From positions 1-33,634 of the IMG/VR virus record IMGVR_UViG_3300043444_000298: 33,634 nucleotides of DNA. One strand, 5' to 3'. Under the pieces are notes generated by a model. That model did no database searches. It was not told where the DNA came from and saw only the letters and a list, made by a program, of their open reading frames with translations. This DNA comes from a virus. Shown here one piece after another: positions 3,827 to 22,132 of the stretch. Within the stretch, counting starts at the first letter, position 1. Each line of letters starts with the position of its first letter. The position numbers were made by a program, and so were the translations under genes.

Positions 3827-5211
3827 GTTGATTTGCTCCTGTTCTTCAGGACCCGCTCCCTGTCGGCTATCAATTGCCGCTCTTGTTCATCGTAGTATTC
3901 GATTGTACCACGTTTAGGGGCCTGCATGGGTGGTTGCTCGCGGTAGTAGTAGGACTTGCGCCAAGCATACAACACCGCATCGGCACAGTCATTGGGCTGC
4001 CCAGGGTTTTCGACCTGCTTGCCGTCTGCCCAGGTCAGGGATTGCCACTCCTCGATAACGGGGCTGTCCTCAGTCACTTGTATCCTGGATGCCTGCATCT
4101 CTGAGTTGAATAGGTCGATGTAGAGGCGCTTCTCACGTTTCTGTGCGGCCTCACAGTTGATACCGTACCGGGCACGAAACTCCTCAGCAATGGATTTGCC
4201 CAGGCCCCCTTCGTCGATGACCACAGAGGTCACGTTGTGGGCCTTGATGAGCTCCTGGGCGCGCCTTGCGATGTCCGACATGAGCACCTTGCCGTGCTTC
4301 TCAACGTGGGTCACAAAGGCTGTGGGGCTGTCCTGTTCATGGGCCACGACGGCCAGGGCTGTCTTGTCCTCAAAGCCTAGGTCAATACCAAGGACGGTCT
4401 GTGCAAAGTGCGTGGGCAGGCTGCGTGCTACGTTGCGCAGTGGGTTGAACAGATAGACCATCTCATCGGAGGACTTGGCCCACTGGCCATAGTACTCGCG
4501 TAGCAGGACCGGGTTGTCATCGGTCCAGCCCCGGCGGCGCTTGAGGTCATCGACCCATGCACGGGCGTCCTTGAGATGTGGGTTATCAAATAGGGTCCAA
4601 TGGAACGACTGCCATTGCTCAGGGTTGTGGTTGGCGCGGTAGAAGTATGATGAGAAGTCCCAACTTGGCGTCCCAATAATCCACAGGTCACCGTTTTCAT
4701 CTAGCGTTGCAGGCTCAAGTATTTCCTCGATCAGTGTGTCGATATGCCCCCTGAACGACGCGCACTCATCCAGGATGACGGTGCGGTAGCTGTGGCCCCG
4801 CAATGTCTCAGCGACGTCCTCCTGGTTGGCACCTGCAAGCCAGACCTCGGAGCCGTTTTGCAATTTGATGATGAGTTCCGTCTCGGATGAGTCGTATCCC
4901 ACGGACAGTTCATCGCACATGCGTTTGAGGCGTGTCCACAACAGGCGCTTGGCCGATTTACGGGTCAGCGCGATGTAGAGGCAGATGCCGTTGGGTCCTG
5001 ACAGCGCAGACTCGATCAGTTTGACTGCTGCCAACTCTGTTTTGCCAGCACGGCGACTGCACCGGATGACCTTGCGTTTGGCTGGATGTTCTGCTGCTGT
5101 GCGTTGTGTTCTGAAGCAATGGTCATAGATGGATCTTAGTCGTGCCTCATATTCAAGCAATGTCAGCAGTTCGGTGTCAGGTTGCATGGTCGATGCGATG
5201 TTGGAGCGCAT
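3817..5211 (-). CDS. terL: Terminase large subunit
   Basis: The DNA-packaging motor and headful or site-specific nuclease. From the ATG at 5211 (464 aa), residues 51-58 give the Walker A-like CSRRAGKT, residues 145-150 the Walker B VILDEC, and IIGTPSWDFSS the coupling region. The nuclease domain opens with LGIDLGFEDKTA (about residue 274), an RNase H-like first acidic strand; VVIDEGGLGKS and NDCADAVLYAW follow. The start is uncertain: TTG 5256, ATG 5211 (GGTGAG 10 nt upstream) and ATG 5187 are in frame. 5187 would overlap the Mom gene by only 11 bp, like other junctions here; 5211 has the better ribosome site. The gene overlaps portal by 10 bp. Confidence 0.92.
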   Translation of the reverse strand: MRSNIASTMQPDTELLTLLEYEARLRSIYDHCFRTQRTAAEHPAKRKVIRCSRRAGKTELAAVKLIESALSGPNGICLYIALTRKSAKRLLWTRLKRMCDELSVGYDSSETELIIKLQNGSEVWLAGANQEDVAETLRGHSYRTVILDECASFRGHIDTLIEEILEPATLDENGDLWIIGTPSWDFSSYFYRANHNPEQWQSFHWTLFDNPHLKDARAWVDDLKRRRGWTDDNPVLLREYYGQWAKSSDEMVYLFNPLRNVARSLPTHFAQTVLGIDLGFEDKTALAVVAHEQDSPTAFVTHVEKHGKVLMSDIARRAQELIKAHNVTSVVIDEGGLGKSIAEEFRARYGINCEAAQKREKRLYIDLFNSEMQASRIQVTEDSPVIEEWQSLTWADGKQVENPGQPNDCADAVLYAWRKSYYYREQPPMQAPKRGTIEYYDEQERQLIADRERVLKNRSKSTWR

Positions 5212-5863
5212 CGGTCGGAATCTCACCGCCCTCTGCTGGTTGGTCACCAGCTGCAACGATACTTTGCTTGATGCGCTTAGGGTATGGCTTTGACAACGAC
5301 AATACTTTGCGTTTCATATCGTCGTCAAGGGGCATGAGATAGCGATACTTTGTAGATCCTTTTACTATTGTCACTCTAGGATCTCGCTCCATTCCCTTAT
5401 ATGAGTTACGAAAAGATCGTCCTTGCCATCTTTTGCCTAAGAAAATGTATTCATCTGACGCTTGTGAACATCCAGAAAAAATCCAATTCCCTCCTTGATA
5501 AACTCCGCCGTGATGGCCTTGTTGAGGGTCAGCAAAGCTAACAATCAATCGTAATCCAGGGTTTGACTTTCTAAGAAACTTTATTGCGATGCTTACAATT
5601 CTTGTGACTGTTGATTGATGCTTTGATAGGGCAATCCGAACGAGTTCACAACCTTGCTCCATTTTTAGACCATATCTTTTAACCAAAGATGATGTCGCCC
5701 CAACCCCAAAGATCACTACACCAATAAACTTATCATTTTCCCATACTCCAATCTTCACGAGTTTGCTTTTTGGGATGCACTTTGAATAGTGCCAATTTTC
5801 ACAAGCATACTTTGCTGCGTCGTGCGTCGCCCAATCTATCCTTAAAACAGGTTTAGAACTCAT
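5177..5863 (-). CDS. mom: Mom-like DNA modification protein
   Basis: This 228-aa protein closely resembles phage Mu Mom, a GNAT-fold enzyme that converts adenine in phage DNA to a carbamoylmethyl derivative, shielding it from host restriction. Family-like segments, in order: RIDWATHDAAKYACENWHYS (8-27), KLVKIGVWENDKFIGVVIF (34-52), GCELVRIALS (71-80), NPGLRLIVSFADPQQGHHGG (101-120) and VYQGGNWIFSG (121-131), then KPYPKRIKQ near the C-terminus. The frame is open upstream to 6055, but that part overlaps the ParB-like gene; ATG 5863 gives an 11-bp overlap and begins where family similarity begins. It is visibly more AT-rich than its neighbours, suggesting acquisition. It lies between the two terminase genes, so modification may be expressed late, with packaging. 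Confidence 0.88.
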   Translation of the reverse strand: MSSKPVLRIDWATHDAAKYACENWHYSKCIPKSKLVKIGVWENDKFIGVVIFGVGATSSLVKRYGLKMEQGCELVRIALSKHQSTVTRIVSIAIKFLRKSNPGLRLIVSFADPQQGHHGGVYQGGNWIFSGCSQASDEYIFLGKRWQGRSFRNSYKGMERDPRVTIVKGSTKYRYLMPLDDDMKRKVLSLSKPYPKRIKQSIVAAGDQPAEGGEIPTDALQHRIDHAT

Positions 5864-6344
5864 GGCCGCAGCTCGGACATGTGACTTTTTTCTTCTCGTC
5901 AAGTTGCCCTTGGTCGTCTTCTGTCCCTGGTTCAAAATCAGGAGATCCGATACTGAGTCCAAGTTGACCATATTCCGACACGTTGAATCCAATGATGCTG
6001 ATGTCAAAGTCCGCCTTGAGTAGGTCTTCAATCTCTTGGCGCAGGATTCCGTCATCCCATCCAGCGTTCATCGCAAGTTTGTTGTCTGCGATGACGTAGG
6101 CACGGGCTTGGTCCGGTGTCAAATGATCCAGATTGACACAGGGCACCTTGTCCCTACCAAGGCGCTTAGCTGCCTCCACACGGCAATGCCCTGCCAGAAT
6201 GGTGTTCTTGTGCAGCAGGACGGGGTTAGTGAACCCAAACTCCTCGATGGACCGCATGACCTGCTTGATCTGGTCTTCGGAGTGTGTGCGGCTGTTTTTG
6301 GCGTATGGGATGAGGTCCTTGATCTTGCGCTCTGCTACGGTCAT
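5853..6344 (-). CDS. ParB/Srx-like domain protein with C-terminal CxxC
   Basis: This 163-aa protein has a ParB N-terminal-type fold: VAERKIKDLIPYAKNSRTHS (3-22), a helix, then TILAGHCRVEAAKRLG (48-63), which carries the GxxR motif, and ARAYVIADNKLA. It lacks a partner ParA and the ParB DNA-binding helix-turn-helix domain, so plasmid partition is unlikely. Phages often carry such domains alone or fused to DNA methyltransferases, where their role is poorly known (nuclease, NTPase or DNA-targeting). The last residues, TCPSCGHEF, form half of a zinc ribbon. Its ATG overlaps the small terminase stop (TGATG) and its end overlaps the mom start, so the three genes are probably co-translated. Confidence 0.8.
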   Translation of the reverse strand: MTVAERKIKDLIPYAKNSRTHSEDQIKQVMRSIEEFGFTNPVLLHKNTILAGHCRVEAAKRLGRDKVPCVNLDHLTPDQARAYVIADNKLAMNAGWDDGILRQEIEDLLKADFDISIIGFNVSEYGQLGLSIGSPDFEPGTEDDQGQLDEKKKVTCPSCGHEF

Positions 6345-11551: not shown

Positions 11552-12309
11552 CCGAATGGCCCACGTTTCACACCGTTCCTGCGGTCGATATACGTATCAA
11601 GGGCCTTGTTACGGGCCAGCAGGCCGAGTTGTATGGTAGCAGGAGGGACCTCCTGATACTCGACCCTGTATGGTGCTACCGACTCGATCCAGACAATCCC
11701 ATGGGCTGTGGCTGCGGGGGCCATGGACCCATAGTGGGCCAGTTGGCAATGATAGTTGCTGGCGTACAGAACATCGTTGCGCTTTGACCAGTCGCTGATC
11801 GTTTTCAAGTCGATGAGTGTTGTCATCAACTCATCATGATGCAACCAGTCCAGTTTGCCTTTTGTGTTGATACCGTGGTACACACCCCACACCTCCACCT
11901 CCGTGGTCGCTGTTGTGACGTTCCCCAACGCCATCTCAGCGGCCATGGTTTGGAAGTTGGCCTTGATGTGCTCCAATGCCCATCCGTGCTCATGCCGGAT
12001 GACAATGCCGCCCTGGTGCTCGGCCTGGGCCTCTGCCTCTGCCTTGATGGCCTTCCCCTCTTTGAGTGCGAAAGACTTGACGTAGGGCATCACAACGTCC
12101 TTTGCGTGGTGCCATGGCTCAAGTAGGGCCCGGTGTACCAGGGTCCCAAACTCAGCCGCTGGGGACGGGTCCCGCTGCATCCACTCAGGCAGAGTGCCAG
12201 CCTCGATAAGCTTGCGCTCAAAGTGCCATCGCTCGAAGTCTGCGACCATGGCCCTGATGTCGGAGCCGCCAAGGGCAAGTGAGGCGCGGTAGGCATCAGG
12301 CTGCGTCAT
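11548..12309 (-). CDS. RecE-like (PD-(D/E)XK) exonuclease
   Basis: This 253-aa protein fits the phage recombination exonucleases related to the C-terminal part of RecE. FGTLVHRALLEP (54-65) has the early His59; TEVEV (136-140) holds Glu137; KGKLDWLHHDE (150-160) has Asp154; TLIDLKTISDW (164-174) gives Asp167 and Lys169; and CQLAHYG has the trailing Gln. It should degrade one strand of double-stranded DNA 5'-3' to make overhangs for single-strand annealing. It is the last gene of a cassette with DUF669 and Sak4-like genes, overlapping the preceding helix-turn-helix gene by 14 bp. An ATG at 12309 is the start. Confidence 0.85.
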   Translation of the reverse strand: MTQPDAYRASLALGGSDIRAMVADFERWHFERKLIEAGTLPEWMQRDPSPAAEFGTLVHRALLEPWHHAKDVVMPYVKSFALKEGKAIKAEAEAQAEHQGGIVIRHEHGWALEHIKANFQTMAAEMALGNVTTATTEVEVWGVYHGINTKGKLDWLHHDELMTTLIDLKTISDWSKRNDVLYASNYHCQLAHYGSMAPAATAHGIVWIESVAPYRVEYQEVPPATIQLGLLARNKALDTYIDRRNGVKRGPFG

Positions 12310-12520
12310 CGTGTTTATTTCCTAGATCACGTTTTTCCCCAACAGCACGGCGCAGGGTCTTAGGATGATATGGCAGGATGACACGGAAGTCCTTGGGGAC
12401 CTCCCATGCACGACCGATGCGGACGGCACCCGTGACCCGGCCCTCGATCAGCCAACGGCAGAATGTACCGTGGCACACACCACAACGCGCTGCGGCCTGG
12501 GCAGCTGTCAGGAATCTCAT
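12296..12520 (-). CDS. Excisionase/AlpA-like helix-turn-helix protein
   Basis: This 74-aa protein has the pattern of a winged HTH_17 or excisionase-type domain: FLTAAQAAARCGVCHGTFCR, WLIEGRVTGAVRIGRAWEVP. This first helix pair followed by a wing is typical of AlpA/MerR-like DNA-binding proteins. It may regulate the recombination operon. Its ATGA overlaps the stop of the DUF669 gene, and its end overlaps the exonuclease by 14 bp, so it is translated within the cassette. No integrase is nearby, so a role in excision is not supported. Confidence 0.7.
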   Translation of the reverse strand: MRFLTAAQAAARCGVCHGTFCRWLIEGRVTGAVRIGRAWEVPKDFRVILPYHPKTLRRAVGEKRDLGNKHDDAA

Positions 12521-14191: not shown

Positions 14192-14380
14192 ATTTTGCCA
14201 GTCCGATTTGTTGACCGCGCCGCTGAAGTGTGGCAGTATTGGAATACCCCAGACGACCGACCGATAGCCGACCGACGGTGCCCGATTCCCAATCTCACAA
14301 ATTAGTGCATCACTGTGTCGCGACTCTCTCACCCATTGTTACTGGCGCCGTTGCCGCTGTCAGGCCCCTAGACTGTGCCC

Positions 14381-14509
14381 CCCCAGACTCCCTTCCCTCC
14401 TGCACTCCCTCCAGTGCCCGGAGGTCTAATGGCTGTGCTATAAATTGATGCAACATAGCGTGACCCTCCGGGTACCGTTGGGCTGGTCTGGAGGGAGGGA
14501 AGTCTGGGG
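14381..14509. repeat. Long inverted repeat, 20-nt imperfect arms
   Basis: CCCCAGACTCCCTTCCCTCC (14381-14400) is nearly the reverse complement of GGAGGGAGGGAAGTCTGGGG (14490-14509); the two arms differ in only two positions. They are 89 bp apart and are strictly pyrimidine/purine biased except for a few bases. Confidence 0.6.
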
Positions 14510-14510
14510 T

Positions 14511-14561
14511 GTGTGTACCTTCTGTGTACGTTTTTTGGCAAAAAACACACATGGTACACAC
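14511..14561. repeat. Nested hairpin with GTGTGTACC arms
   Basis: GTGTGTACC (14511-14519) pairs with GGTACACAC (14553-14561); inside it TGTGT (14523-14527) pairs with ACACA (14547-14551), and GTTTTTT (14530-14536) pairs with AAAAAAC (14540-14546) around a GGC loop. About 21 base pairs in 51 nt with two small bulges make a strong potential cruciform. Confidence 0.65.
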
Positions 14562-14878
14562 CAAGGTACACACCTTTATAACAATGATAACATATACTTA
14601 AGTACCTACTGTGTACCTGTGTACCTTTATATTCTCAAACTTTATATACAAACCTCTTATGTTTGTTTTTTCCAAAAGTGTTGGACAAAAAAATGAAAAA
14701 AGGTACACGGACAAAAATGCTCATTAATGAGTCATTTGGAGACTTTTTATGTGTCCTGGATACAATGCTTTTTTGGGGCTATTTGGGCAAGTCGTTGTTT
14801 GTATACTGTTTTTTAATTTTAGGGATGAGTCAGAGCTACTTGGAATCGGTGTGCATACCTCGATCAAAAAGGTACACA
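14511..14878. repeat. GGTACACA/TGTGTACC repeats (iteron-like)
   Basis: Eight-mers GGTACACA or their complement TGTGTACC lie at 14512-14519, 14553-14560, 14565-14572, 14610-14617, 14618-14625 and 14871-14878. Near-copies lie at 14523-14530 (TGTGTACG) and 14702-14709 (GGTACACG). Both orientations occur, two are adjacent, and two are within the hairpin arms. The last one lies inside a coding frame. Direct repeats of this kind are typical of initiator binding sites. Confidence 0.55.
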
Positions 14879-15141
14879 CCTCAATCCAATCGACGGTCCC
14901 AGGTGCATTTGTGCATTATTTTGTGGCAGATTCTGTGGATGAAAATCTGACCGATGCGGTTTTCCTCGATGCCCCCATCAAAGGGCACCCCATGATGGAT
15001 CTGGCACGGCACTTGGCAAAGGAGTATGCCCAACAATCGGGCATTCCCGACAACGGCACCCCCTCCCTCAAGGACCAAAAACGGAACCGCAAGCTTGCGC
15101 TCAAGGCGCTTGCCGAGATGGGCCTCAAGGCTAGTCGTTAG
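14749..15141 (+). CDS. Unknown protein, 130 aa, between origin and helicase
   Basis: GGAG lies 7 nt before ATG 14749. The first 30 residues are hydrophobic (NAFLGLFGQVVVCILFFNFR) and AT-rich, then the frame becomes GC-rich and clearly coding. It has a tandem motif VHTSIKKVHTSI and a helical C-terminus (HPMMDLARHLAKEYAQQSGI, then DQKRNRKLALKALAEMGLKA). No family was recognised. The basic C-terminal helix suggests DNA binding. A GTG at 14851 is an alternative start that removes the hydrophobic part. It converges on the helicase gene with an 11-bp overlap. Another open frame (14663-14950) overlaps the first part. Confidence 0.6.
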   Translation: MCPGYNAFLGLFGQVVVCILFFNFRDESELLGIGVHTSIKKVHTSIQSTVPGAFVHYFVADSVDENLTDAVFLDAPIKGHPMMDLARHLAKEYAQQSGIPDNGTPSLKDQKRNRKLALKALAEMGLKASR

Positions 15142-16531
15142 TCGTTGACCACAGTGCGGTGCCCCATTTAGGGGAGTCCGTCTTGATGGCCACGTTGCGG
15201 ACCCCTTTGACAGGGTTTGCGGCCTCTCTGATGCGCCCCCTGCCCTTTATATCAATAGCCTTGTCAGCGTCGCACACAGATGGCTGGAGGATGTGCAGCC
15301 GGTCCTTGATATCGGAGACCCCAATAGCATCGCCCTTGAGCATCCTTTTAATGGTCGAGTTGGGCACAAAGCACCCAGCCCGGTATTCCATGTTCTCAAG
15401 GATCCACCCGTCAGCGTCCAGGTGATAGTTGCTGATACACTCCTCTAGTTCCTGTTCATCCATCTTTAAGATGGTCTGCCCTGCTGCGAAGTATTCCAGC
15501 ACAGCGGCGTCAACAATGTGGGGCCACCACATGTCCAGTTCATCGAATATTTCAACCTCGGTCCTCTTTATGCCGTCCTTGCGCGGGGTGGAGCACACCA
15601 GCCGCAGCCTGTCTCTACTGCTGTCCTGACCGTCAATGATGGGCATCTGGTTGCTGGTCATCCAAAAGAATGTATGGTTCCTGAACGTGCGGATGCTTTT
15701 GTATGGTGACCTGCCCGTTAGGAACCGATTGCCGGTGATGGCCTTCATCTCCTCAGTGAGAAACCTGCCCTTGCCTACTTCCTCGGCAATGACCATGCGT
15801 TTGCCTTCAAGCATGGCAATCGTGTAGTCCTCTGTCAGCTTTTTGGGCTTGATGTTAGGCAGAGCACACGGGCCTAGTTTGTGTGCGAGAAAGTTGCACA
15901 GCGTTGTCTTGCCTTCGCCGCCGCTACCATACCAGTATAGAATCTCACGTCTGGGTTCCGAGTCCCATAGCAAGGCCCCGATGGCTGACAGGAGACGGCG
16001 GAACATCGTAGAATCCTGCCCGTCAAAGTCTGCCATGTTGACGCGCAACGAGGTCATAAATGGCCCCAGCGTGTCCCAATTCCGTGGTCCCGTGATGCGC
16101 TTCTCATCGGGGGTGATGCCACACCTGACAAGGGGAATGCGCCTGAAGCAATACCCGCCGTCGTCGATGAACCCGATGGGCCTGATCTCGCCGTCAATGA
16201 CCCTGTCACAGCCCTCTACCTTGAGGAACCCATCGACCAGGAACATGCAGTCCTTGGCTTGCTCGTTGGTCATGCTAATCTTGGGCAGCATCTGCATCTC
16301 GGCCAGTTCGGCTGATGCCACGGCTATCTGAAATATTAGGTCCTCACGCTCAAGGATGGACAGCTGCCCTAGGTCTTCCTTACGGTAGTATGCCAGCCCA
16401 TCGGCGCTTTTGACGGCTACAAAGTTGGGGCTGTCGCGGTCAGTCTCGATGGCTGTCCCGTGCAGCATCCATTCCCTGAGTTGTATTTTGTGTTCTGCTT
16501 TTTTTGCTTGCGTATCAATCTTAGGTGCCAT
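15131..16531 (-). CDS. SF3 (D5/P4-type) replicative helicase
   Basis: This 466-aa protein has the SF3 helicase motifs: Walker A YGSGGEGKTTL (201-211), Walker B MVIAEEVGKG (246-255), motif C TFFWMTSNQMP (287-297) and a basic arginine-finger region SSRDRLRLV (304-312). It should form a ring that unwinds DNA at the replication origin. No primase domain (Prim-pol or zinc-binding) is present, unlike P4-alpha. The N-terminal ~160 residues are of D5_N-like character. It lies beside the candidate origin. The ATG at 16531 is the start, with GGAG 12 nt upstream. A hairpin lies in the leader between this gene and the next one upstream. Confidence 0.9.
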   Translation of the reverse strand: MAPKIDTQAKKAEHKIQLREWMLHGTAIETDRDSPNFVAVKSADGLAYYRKEDLGQLSILEREDLIFQIAVASAELAEMQMLPKISMTNEQAKDCMFLVDGFLKVEGCDRVIDGEIRPIGFIDDGGYCFRRIPLVRCGITPDEKRITGPRNWDTLGPFMTSLRVNMADFDGQDSTMFRRLLSAIGALLWDSEPRREILYWYGSGGEGKTTLCNFLAHKLGPCALPNIKPKKLTEDYTIAMLEGKRMVIAEEVGKGRFLTEEMKAITGNRFLTGRSPYKSIRTFRNHTFFWMTSNQMPIIDGQDSSRDRLRLVCSTPRKDGIKRTEVEIFDELDMWWPHIVDAAVLEYFAAGQTILKMDEQELEECISNYHLDADGWILENMEYRAGCFVPNSTIKRMLKGDAIGVSDIKDRLHILQPSVCDADKAIDIKGRGRIREAANPVKGVRNVAIKTDSPKWGTALWSTTND

Positions 16532-16620: not shown

Positions 16621-17028
16621 CTATTCTGCACAAATGTAATGTTGATTATCTTTGAGCAAAACATCATAGCCTGGGTTGTCTTTTGTCTCAAAACACAGGG
16701 CTCTAAGATACTCCATTAGCATATCAATCTCTGCTGTTGTTAGATAATGCTCTGGCAGCTTTTGCGTTAATGTCGATTCATCGTTGTTGTTCTCTGCGTC
16801 ATATATATCAGCCTGAAACTCAATTGAGGCGCAGAAAGTATTGATGATAGCCGATCTCACCGTCTTAGGTCTGACAACATACCGAAACGGGCCGTCACAC
16901 TTAAGCGCCCATGGTGTTGGATTGTATTTTGGGTCATATTTTAGTTTTGACCCCAGGCGCTGCAGAGTCTCCCTAAAAGCATCAGTTTTGTTGGGTTTAA
17001 ATTGTTGAGTGTTTTTGTCTTCTGTCAT
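16621..17028 (-). CDS. Unknown acidic protein, 135 aa
   Basis: No family was recognised. It begins MTEDKNTQQFKPNKTDAFRE, has a central stretch with KCDGPFRYVVRPKTVRSAII and ends with LTTAEIDMLMEYLRALCFET and NPGYDVLLKDNQHYICAE. It is acidic, with a helix-rich C-terminal half. It is more AT-rich than the neighbouring helicase. The start is uncertain: ATG 17028 (AAGGG upstream) or ATG 17073, which adds 15 residues. It lies upstream of the helicase on the same strand, and might be a replication-accessory protein. Confidence 0.55.
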   Translation of the reverse strand: MTEDKNTQQFKPNKTDAFRETLQRLGSKLKYDPKYNPTPWALKCDGPFRYVVRPKTVRSAIINTFCASIEFQADIYDAENNNDESTLTQKLPEHYLTTAEIDMLMEYLRALCFETKDNPGYDVLLKDNQHYICAE

Positions 17029-17156
17029 ACAATACCCTTTATCATCGTTGCTATCTTTCAATGTGCTCCCCATCTGCACCACGCTGGTGGGGATTATTTT
17101 TTACCACCAATCGCAAACTGACATCAACCAACCCGCTCCGGCTGTCACAACTGAAA

Positions 17157-17209
17157 TTCATTTGCAGTTCATTTGTATTTCACTTGCCATGCAATTGCAC
17201 GTCATTTGC
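17157..17209 (+). repeat. Five direct repeats, exact 11-bp period
   Basis: Nine-mers TTCATTTGC, TTCATTTGT, TTCACTTGC, TGCAATTGC and GTCATTTGC start at 17157, 17168, 17179, 17190 and 17201. Every step is exactly 11 bp, so copies sit on one face of the helix. C3, A4, T6, T7 and G8 are invariant. A weaker sixth copy (CGCATCCGT) starts at 17212. They end in the -35 box of the promoter below. Confidence 0.75.
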
Positions 17210-17233
17210 CACGCATCCGTGCAGTGATATACT
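17206..17233 (+). promoter_or_regulatory. Promoter of the accessory island; likely leaderless
   Basis: TTGCCA (17206-17211, 5 of 6) and TATACT (17228-17233, 5 of 6) are 16 bp apart, and TGA precedes the -10 box (extended -10). Transcription should start at about 17240, which is the A of the VRR-NUC ATG (17240). No Shine-Dalgarno sequence is present, so translation may start on a leaderless mRNA. Confidence 0.6.
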
Positions 17234-17239
17234 TACTGC

Positions 17240-17716
17240 ATGACCAAACCAAAACGTGACATCTATGATGGCGCTGTGCCTGCTAGCGACTACTACACGT
17301 CTAACGTAACACAGCCCAAACTCAAACTGAGTCACTTCACCAAGTCACAGGCACACTACAATGTGCAAGTACCGAAGGCCGACATCAGGCAGGTAAGGGA
17401 ACAGGTCATCCAGTCCGAGATCATCGAACTGCTGCGGGACAGCGGCGCATGGGTCCACAAGGCCAAGGCGGTCAACCTTGTCGGTGACGGCATCCTCGCC
17501 CCCACGCAGCAGGGTGTGCCCGACATCCTGGCCTGCTACCGTGGCAGGTTCGTTGCTATCGAGGTCAAGGCGGCGTCCAAAAGGGCCAAGGTCTCCGGGG
17601 AGCAGGCCGCACAGATTGCAATGATAATCGAGTGCGAGGGCGTGGCCGCCGTGTGCTGGTCAACCGCACAAGTTGAAGCAATACTGCAGTCTATTGACAA
17701 CTCCATCGACGGCTAG
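17240..17716 (+). CDS. VRR-NUC nuclease (PD-(D/E)XK type)
   Basis: This 158-aa protein has the VRR-NUC pattern: QVIQSEIIELLRDSGAWVHK with Glu60 in the first helix, GVPDILACYRGRFVAIEVKA (92-111) with Asp95, Glu108 and Lys110, then VSGEQAAQIAMIIECEG with the trailing Gln. Family members include Fan1-type and standalone phage nucleases that cut structured DNA such as junctions or flaps. In a phage it could resolve recombination intermediates, cut host DNA or process packaging substrates. It is the first gene of the plus-strand island and is driven by the promoter and repeats directly upstream. Confidence 0.85.
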   Translation: MTKPKRDIYDGAVPASDYYTSNVTQPKLKLSHFTKSQAHYNVQVPKADIRQVREQVIQSEIIELLRDSGAWVHKAKAVNLVGDGILAPTQQGVPDILACYRGRFVAIEVKAASKRAKVSGEQAAQIAMIIECEGVAAVCWSTAQVEAILQSIDNSIDG

Positions 17717-17729
17717 TACGTTGCGATGT

Positions 17730-17828
17730 ATGAACACTGAACCCGACTATAAGCATATGTTCACTATGGTCCTCCTGCTTGCCTTGCTGCTGGCATTTTG
17801 GGGCACAGTCCTGTGGTTCATTCTATGA
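17730..17828 (+). CDS. Possible 32-aa single-span membrane peptide
   Basis: A short frame encodes MNTEPDYKHMFTM followed by a hydrophobic helix (VLLLALLLAFWGTVLWFIL) to the stop. The size and the one strong membrane segment resemble small phage toxins or holin-like peptides. There is no clear ribosome site, so it may not be translated. It lies between the VRR-NUC gene and the next gene of the island. Confidence 0.4.
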   Translation: MNTEPDYKHMFTMVLLLALLLAFWGTVLWFIL

Positions 17829-17841
17829 AGTACTTCATCCT

Positions 17842-18102
17842 ATGAAATACGAAAAAGAAGTATTCGATCACATGATGAGCTGTATGAAGCTATGGCAGAT
17901 CCACGTCTCAAGCGATGGGCGCTTCTGGGCAGGCCCCAGGACAGCCGACGGCCGCGTCACCGAGAACCACGTCCGGTCCATGCTGCGCCAGGAGCTGATC
18001 ATCGCCTTCAGGCTCAGCGAGGCTGCCCGCAAGAAATACATCAACTCCCTGCTGGCCTTTGCCATCGATAAAGCCGGACGACTGGAGAGAGGTGAGGCAT
18101 GA
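17842..18102 (+). CDS. Unknown protein, 86 aa
   Basis: The proposed start is ATG 17842; the frame is open from 17779, but the upstream part overlaps the membrane peptide and reads as out-of-frame sequence. The product begins MKYEKEVFDHMMSCMKLWQI, then DGRFWAGPRTADGRVTENHV, RSMLRQELIIAFRLSEAARK. It is helix-rich and roughly neutral. No family was recognised. Its ATGA overlap with the next gene shows that it is part of a translationally coupled set. Confidence 0.6.
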   Translation: MKYEKEVFDHMMSCMKLWQIHVSSDGRFWAGPRTADGRVTENHVRSMLRQELIIAFRLSEAARKKYINSLLAFAIDKAGRLERGEA

Positions 18103-18315: not shown

Positions 18316-18956
<641 letters not shown>

Positions 18957-21031: not shown

Positions 21032-22132
21032 TTATGCGATGCGGACTGCGGTTAGACGACAACGGTAACGGGGGGTGCCGGCGGAGTATTCAGCCCTGAC
21101 TTTGAGATAATGGGTGGTAGTAGTTGTGGGTCTGAATATTACCTGAGGCAGGCAAGCACTTGTGTTACTTGTTGCTGTTGGCGGCAAACAAGCAACAAGA
21201 GTGTCACCAAAAGTTAGGCCAGCACCGCTATTTCCTGATGTCGTGTTGATGCCTAAAAGGATGCTTTGAGTTGTCGATCCGTTTAGTTCTCCGTCGATAT
21301 AAGCGGAAAGCAACCATACTCCTGATGTCAAAGATACCGACGCCCCATCTCCGTAGGTGGCTGTTGTCGGAAATGTAGTTATCGAGGTTTGTTTTCCCTC
21401 GACAACCTCCCCCACATGCCCCGCACTGATGGCCGAGCCGTTGGTCCTCCCCACGATCGCCTGCCCAGCGTAGTCGCTTGAGCCGATCTTGGAGGGGAGC
21501 CCTAGCGTCAACGCCCCAGCAGCAGTACTGGCAATGGCAGCCGCATTATTGGCCAGGATGTTAAAGCCCTGATTGCTCGTAGCACCAAAGGACAGAGTGC
21601 TGCCCACCGACTGCCCACCGACAACGAGGGCATTGGCCGATGTTGCGCTTGCGGTGTGGGAGGTCCAGCCGGAGATGGGGATCGAAATGAAGATAGATAT
21701 GTTGTCGCCAGTGTTAAAGGAGAATGGCGCGGTGTTTGATACAATAGATGCCGCGCCTATCGCTAAGAATATTGATTTATTGGATCCTCCATCCATGGAG
21801 ACCACGCCGCCGTAACCTGCACTTACTCCACTGTCAAGTCCAGTCCAGTATCCTATTGCCAGCCCTACGTCCGTTACATTAGGCAGACTTGAGTCATCAA
21901 CAGTTAATCCAAGTCCATTAAGATATTGGGATTGGGTTGCAGAAAATGATCCGGCAGATGGAGAGGTGGTAAATGCAATATCTATAGCGCATTCAATGTT
22001 AGTTCCGTTTCGTCTCCACCTGCCTGTATATGTGGCGTTATTAAAACTCCCTGTGGGAGTGTAACTTGTCCAACCACTCGCAGCCGGCACACTCACAGTC
22101 AGCGGGGCTAGGCGGGATGATAGTGTGGCCAT
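21032..22132 (-). CDS. Tail fibre / receptor-binding protein, 366 aa
   Basis: The protein is rich in S, T, G, A and N, with beta-type repeats. The N-terminal part has TSYTPTGSFNNATYTGRWRR and YLNGLGLTVDDSSLPNVTDV; the centre TIGGQSVGSTLSFGATSNQG-like strands; the C-terminus FRPTTTTTHYLKVRAEYSAG, TPRYRCRLTAVRIA, similar to C1q/TNF-like or fibre-knob ends. It follows another fibre gene and precedes a strong promoter. The N-terminal half (about 21690-22020) is AT-richer than the rest. Role: probable receptor binding at the tip. Confidence 0.7.
   Translation of the reverse strand: MATLSSRLAPLTVSVPAASGWTSYTPTGSFNNATYTGRWRRNGTNIECAIDIAFTTSPSAGSFSATQSQYLNGLGLTVDDSSLPNVTDVGLAIGYWTGLDSGVSAGYGGVVSMDGGSNKSIFLAIGAASIVSNTAPFSFNTGDNISIFISIPISGWTSHTASATSANALVVGGQSVGSTLSFGATSNQGFNILANNAAAIASTAAGALTLGLPSKIGSSDYAGQAIVGRTNGSAISAGHVGEVVEGKQTSITTFPTTATYGDGASVSLTSGVWLLSAYIDGELNGSTTQSILLGINTTSGNSGAGLTFGDTLVACLPPTATSNTSACLPQVIFRPTTTTTHYLKVRAEYSAGTPRYRCRLTAVRIA

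Follow-up and report, generated by a model that had tools for sequence, protein, structure and literature searches.

A phased repeat array overlaps the promoter of a nuclease operon

Five short direct repeats upstream of a nuclease operon in the virus recorded as IMGVR_UViG_3300043444_000298 raise the question of whether they form an operator and, if so, for which protein, or whether they are better explained in some other way. In the window, by which we mean the entire IMG/VR record of 33,634 nucleotides, the array lies among the following features.

16621..17028, − strand: orphan protein of 135 aa whose gene opens the leftward operon; no counterpart in either relative sharing the promoter
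17068..17103, + strand: hairpin CCCCA...TGGGG with a T run behind it; all three genomes have such a hairpin, but its stem sequence differs
17098..17127, − strand: predicted leftward promoter, −35 TTGATG (17127-17122) and −10 TAAAAA (17103-17098), assigned by eye
17146..17156, + strand: possible degenerate sixth unit CACAACTGAAA (core CAACTG), in phase but marginal
17157..17211, + strand: array of five 11-bp direct repeats with the in-phase core CANTTG
17206..17211, + strand: rightward promoter, −35 hexamer (TTGCCA), within the last repeat
17228..17233, + strand: rightward promoter, −10 hexamer (TATACT), separated by one base from a preceding TG and by 6 nt from the ATG
17240..17716, + strand: PD-(D/E)XK (Hjc/VRR-NUC-like) nuclease of 158 aa, first gene of the rightward operon

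The array units TTCATTTGCAG, TTCATTTGTAT, TTCACTTGCCA, TGCAATTGCAC, and GTCATTTGCCA start, in that order, at positions 17157, 17168, 17179, 17190, and 17201. TRF assigns them a period of 11 with 5.0 copies, 30 of 44 positions match at lag 11, and among 300 shuffled versions of the window that preserve dinucleotides, not one reached the significance of the array at lags 7 through 18, so that the five repeats of exact 11-bp period reported in the preliminary description are borne out. Across four related phage genomes (~139 kb in total), this is the sole place with at least four in-phase 6-mer copies at 10 or 11 bp, and no second copy of the array was found at another promoter of the phage. The array is thus real, single in the genome, and exactly phased. 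The unit at 17146 beats 97.8% of genome windows, with 2.2% scoring equally well, while the next unit downstream (17212) does not score above background; a search of Rfam returned only sub-threshold chance matches to miRNAs. Relative to the rightward start, the array spans −83 to −29, and its final unit includes TTGCCA, in agreement with the earlier statement that the last copy covers the −35 box. Columns C3, A4, T6, T7, and G8 are invariant, as had also been described for five of nine bases. However, when the ten observed substitutions are scattered randomly over the array, at least five invariant columns remain in 25% of trials (P 0.25), and the invariant columns, being within the range of chance, lend no support to a conserved core.

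The promoter is shared with relatives, and the nuclease mRNA is most likely leaderless

A megablast search of the central 10 kb of the window against the phage collection gave no match; three relatives were instead found via the nuclease and the terminase. G001 (37.0 kb) shares 61% identity in the nuclease and 81% in Sak4, whose gene runs across both ends of that genome; G002 (33.8 kb) has the same gene order, with 71% identity in the terminase and 39% in the nuclease; and G007 (34.6 kb) shares 66% in the terminase and 35% in Sak4. Searches with the orphan or the helicase protein yielded no relatives, and none turned up when, with the host in view, genome contigs were scanned for TerL and Sak4.

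The rightward promoter scores 10 of 12 (5/6 at the −35 and 5/6 at the extended −10), and a σ70-type promoter is found at the orthologous nuclease gene in all three phages compared (the present one, G001, and G002), with −10 hexamers TATACT, TACAAT, and TAAATT, five of six matches at the −35, a spacer of 16 to 17 nt, and the −10 always exactly 6 nt before the ATG. Among the 35 to 37 genes scanned per genome, this arrangement occurs only at the nuclease gene, apart from one false match within a gene of G002. No Shine-Dalgarno sequence precedes the nuclease ATG (17240), and the protein alignment between the window and G001 starts at the Met of this codon. Together, the conserved position of the −10, the missing Shine-Dalgarno sequence, and the alignment from Met point to the ATG as the most likely transcription start, and we infer that the nuclease mRNA is most likely leaderless. 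A start of the leaderless type (17228-17242) is kept at this one gene in three phages.

As to the gene itself, what had been called a VRR-NUC nuclease operon does begin with a PD-(D/E)XK-type nuclease, but it is the Pfam family Hjc that passes its cut-off, while VRR_NUC stays just under; the PHROG match is to "endonuclease" (E 1e-17). The gap that follows the nuclease gene contains, at 17817-17850, a near-perfect 17-bp tandem duplication, TTCATCCTATGAAATAC. On the divergent side, the replication genes make up the leftward operon, and a leftward TAAAA(A/T) identified by eye occupies the same position in the window and in both relatives, followed by a hairpin of differing sequence, which in the window (17068..17103) looks like either a terminator for rightward transcription or a leader hairpin of the leftward mRNA.

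The array is lineage-specific

Although the promoter is shared, the array is not: it is absent from the orthologous promoter of both G001 and G002, and neither genome contains at least four phased copies anywhere. G002 does carry 10-bp ATAAC repeats at 21231, but in three copies only and immediately ahead of a small gene. Lack of conservation in relatives, which the preliminary description had named as a result that would refute its reading, is thus what the two relatives with the promoter show; but with nuclease identities of ~61% and 39% these relatives are distant, and the absence marks the array as lineage-specific rather than its function as nonexistent.

The same comparison feeds the strongest rival of a regulatory reading, namely that the array is a decaying tandem duplication of the −35 segment TTTGCCA, produced by slippage, whose copies have drifted and which has no dedicated binder. 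In G001, a T run is followed by a dozen bases (ACCACAG) and then by the same TTTGCCA at the −35, in a single copy, and G002 has no such repeat; in view of the single G001 segment, the array could have arisen through tandem duplication of the equivalent of that segment. Every unit of the array holds a −35-like TTGCNN or TTGTAT, and the spread of substitutions over the columns fits drift (P 0.25). Arrays of this geometry are, moreover, nothing unusual. When viral contigs were scanned for exact matches to three copies of TCAYTTG at 11 bp, 27 stretches emerged, compared with 32 for the reversed pattern used as a control; the non-redundant arrays numbered 19 for each, with similar spacer-identity spectra. 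We accordingly rejected the TCAYTTG core as a widespread phage element, and viral contigs commonly contain 11-bp tandem arrays of one sequence or another. Against neutral growth stands the observation that neighboring units differ at about one-third of positions and yet not one indel breaks the 11-bp phase over five copies. Furthermore, one would expect such an array to disappear from a compact phage genome, and this one ends exactly on the −35. We therefore consider neutral duplication unlikely, while taking it more seriously than the other rivals discussed below.

The array may be the operator of an early promoter

Phased direct repeats over the −35 of a near-consensus promoter are best explained by a repressor that binds cooperatively and head to tail, and since this promoter would need no activator, repression is favored over activation. 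We therefore tentatively read the array as a lineage-specific operator of the rightward early promoter, occupied by a polymerizing repressor, with a probability of roughly 45%. Directly observed are a phased array that overlaps the −35 and a promoter that is present in three phages, whereas binding of a protein, its polymerization, and repression are what we infer. According to this model, a small DNA-binding protein would place one monomer on each 11-bp unit, head to tail, with every monomer facing the same side of the helix; binding would become strong only with three or more neighboring units and would bend the DNA; and the bound protein would cover the −35 box, switching transcription of the nuclease operon off or timing it. 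The suggestion that the array is the operator of an unknown phage-encoded regulator thus remains the best reading of a phased, single array over the −35 of a conserved promoter, even though the array has no counterpart in relatives.

A sequence effect without any specific protein would be an alternative: the array has short A/T tracts at 11-bp intervals, and phased ATTT tracts might confer curvature that acts like an UP element. The predicted curvature of the array, calculated with wedge values, however, reaches only the 91st to 95th percentile of the window, and we regard this explanation as highly improbable.

If the array is an operator, control of the early promoter would turn over fast between related phages: promoter, leaderless start, and divergent layout would have been kept, while a phased array was gained in one lineage.

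A small Xis-like protein is the leading candidate binder

We then considered which protein might occupy the array. The phage encodes one protein predicted to have the Xis/Apl/BldC fold.

12296..12520, − strand: 74-aa excisionase/BldC-like winged-helix protein (HTH_17), candidate array binder

Its structural model (pLDDT ~90 over residues 1-50) best matches the λ Xis-DNA filament (Z 6.8, rmsd 1.3, 49 residues), and the further matches listed are HK022 Xis, Pukovnik Xis, RdfS, and BldC. With Foldseek E values from 0.03 to about 1 and VIA-align Z scores of 4.5 to 6.8, these matches indicate a shared small fold and are not proof of function; by its own sequence, the protein falls under the curated cut-offs of HTH_17 and TIGR01764. 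Binding sites for proteins of the Xis/Apl/BldC type comprise at least three direct repeats about one helix turn apart, and the array offers five at exactly 11 bp. On the other hand, orthologues with a similar recognition helix occur in G001 (57%) and G002 (34%), both of which lack the array, and this counts against the 74-aa protein. On balance, it is the most likely binder by its modeled fold, claiming about half of the probability that we assign to the operator as a whole. Should the assignment hold, the 74-aa protein and the 55-bp array would be a small testable pair in a phage with no apparent use for excision.

The alternative candidates are a host regulator, discussed below, and the 135-aa orphan encoded divergently from the array. 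The orphan, a weak candidate, matched no family and gave only chance matches to phage and designed-protein sequences, and its AF2 model is uninformative (pLDDT 36). It is tempting to speculate that the array and the orphan, both missing in relatives, form a new regulator-operator pair, brought in together with an exchanged replication module, and that this pair switches the leaderless early promoter via a filament of one turn per monomer, built from an undescribed DNA-binding fold; we regard this as a long shot.

Comparison with known direct-repeat systems

A close parallel is Apl of coliphage 186, whose binding sites, five repeats at att and a further seven in the pR-pL region, have a spacing of 10 to 11 bp; it binds cooperatively, needs at least three repeats, bends the DNA, and represses early promoters (PMC7498355). 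Both systems place a series of direct repeats one helix turn apart over an early phage promoter, and the present phage likewise encodes a small Xis-like winged-helix protein. However, its promoters are divergent whereas those of 186 face each other, the recognition core differs, orthologues of the 74-aa protein occur in relatives without the array, and, unlike in the Apl system, no integrase was recognized among the ORFs scanned. BldC and RdfS (HTH_17, MerR-like) polymerize cooperatively on direct repeats one helix turn apart (PMC5859096, PMC11963761), and the resemblance here lies in the fold of the candidate binder and in the known spacing of monomers by one DNA turn. Moreover, the BldC site at smeA contains CATTTGCAC, which is close to CATTTGCAG of the array. 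BldC repeats are nevertheless 9 bp in length, compared with 11 in the array, and the BldC consensus AATTxxxxC, at 17 of 25 matches, is equaled by 30% of random arrays.

This last figure comes from a comparison of the Pho, stbDR, parC, and BldC consensuses, taken in part from the papers cited, with simulated random arrays. The fit of the B. subtilis PhoP consensus lay within the range of random arrays, and the stbDR and parC sequences fitted no better than chance. With none of these known 11-bp consensuses outperforming random arrays, the earlier remark that the consensus is not a recognized one stands.

The Pho comparison bears on the possibility that the array is an operator of a host response regulator of the OmpR/PhoB type, in which case the nuclease operon would follow host physiology, e.g., phosphate starvation. 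PhoB/PhoP proteins bind head to tail on Pho boxes, whose direct repeat units, 11 nt each, lie near promoters (PMC4415409), operators of four core and two weaker units are known (PMC7866108), and host PhoB drives cyanophage genes (PMC10976474). Yet the cores CTGTCAT and GTTCACC each reach 20 of 35 matches, a score equaled by 43% and 33% of random arrays, respectively, and over the E. coli, S. coelicolor, and cyanobacterial cores this share is 32 to 43%. Unlike Pho promoters, the present one already has a good −35. Control by such a regulator is thus improbable.

A more probable replication origin lies beside the helicase gene

Finally, five direct repeats could serve an initiator as the iterons of a replication origin, or a ParR/StbA-like protein as a partition or centromere site. 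The parC site of R1 and stbDR of R388 both consist of five direct repeats (PMC4949242, PMC3098194); stbDR, with 9-bp repeats set 2 bp apart, even shares the 11-bp period and surrounds a promoter, and the cumulative GC skew of the window has its minimum near 17.5 kb. However, the stbDR repeat TTGCATCAT is unmatched beyond chance, as is parC, no ParM/ParR or StbA was recognized among the neighbors scanned, which include small uncharacterized proteins, and the window contains a better origin candidate at 14381-14881.

14381..14509: 129-nt long imperfect hairpin
14511..14881: cluster of inverted GTGTACC copies, a probable replication origin
15131..16531: helicase (DUF5906)

The stretch folded around the hairpin (14340-14510) has an RNA minimum free energy of −89.8 kcal/mol (z −6.9), and the corresponding position of G002 also holds a hairpin (z −4.0), as does, more weakly, that of G001 (z −1.9); the hairpin matches no Rfam family. 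Upstream of it, the DNA of noncoding positions 14228-14285 is strongly conserved with G002. The adjoining 14511-14881 holds 7 of the 12 GTGTACC copies of the window, on both strands, next to the helicase gene and within 365 bp. The syntenic position is taken in G001 by inverted ATCACCAAAATCACCAA repeats and in G002 by a short inverted pair, ACGGCACGG, while neither has anything at the place of the array. These features make 14511-14881 a probable replication origin with lineage-specific iterons, so that the iteron/initiator reading of the array is not supported; we consider it, together with the partition variant, very improbable.

Between the phages, identity in the helicase is as low as 28%, compared with 81/56% for Sak4 and 61/39% for the nuclease. 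Taken together with the differing repeats at the same place, this low identity suggests that helicase and origin repeats were possibly exchanged together as an initiator-origin module.

Further features of the window

A Mom-like DNA modification protein is encoded at 5177-6055 (PHROG E 9e-54) and a ParB_N-domain protein ahead of it at 5853-6344; the relatives examined have neither. Positions 18651-18804 consist of 26 copies of a 6-bp ACGGGT-like unit with a higher-order period of 18 bp, open in several frames, and a similar hexamer array of TCTGGG is found in G004 (L055:1990-2086).
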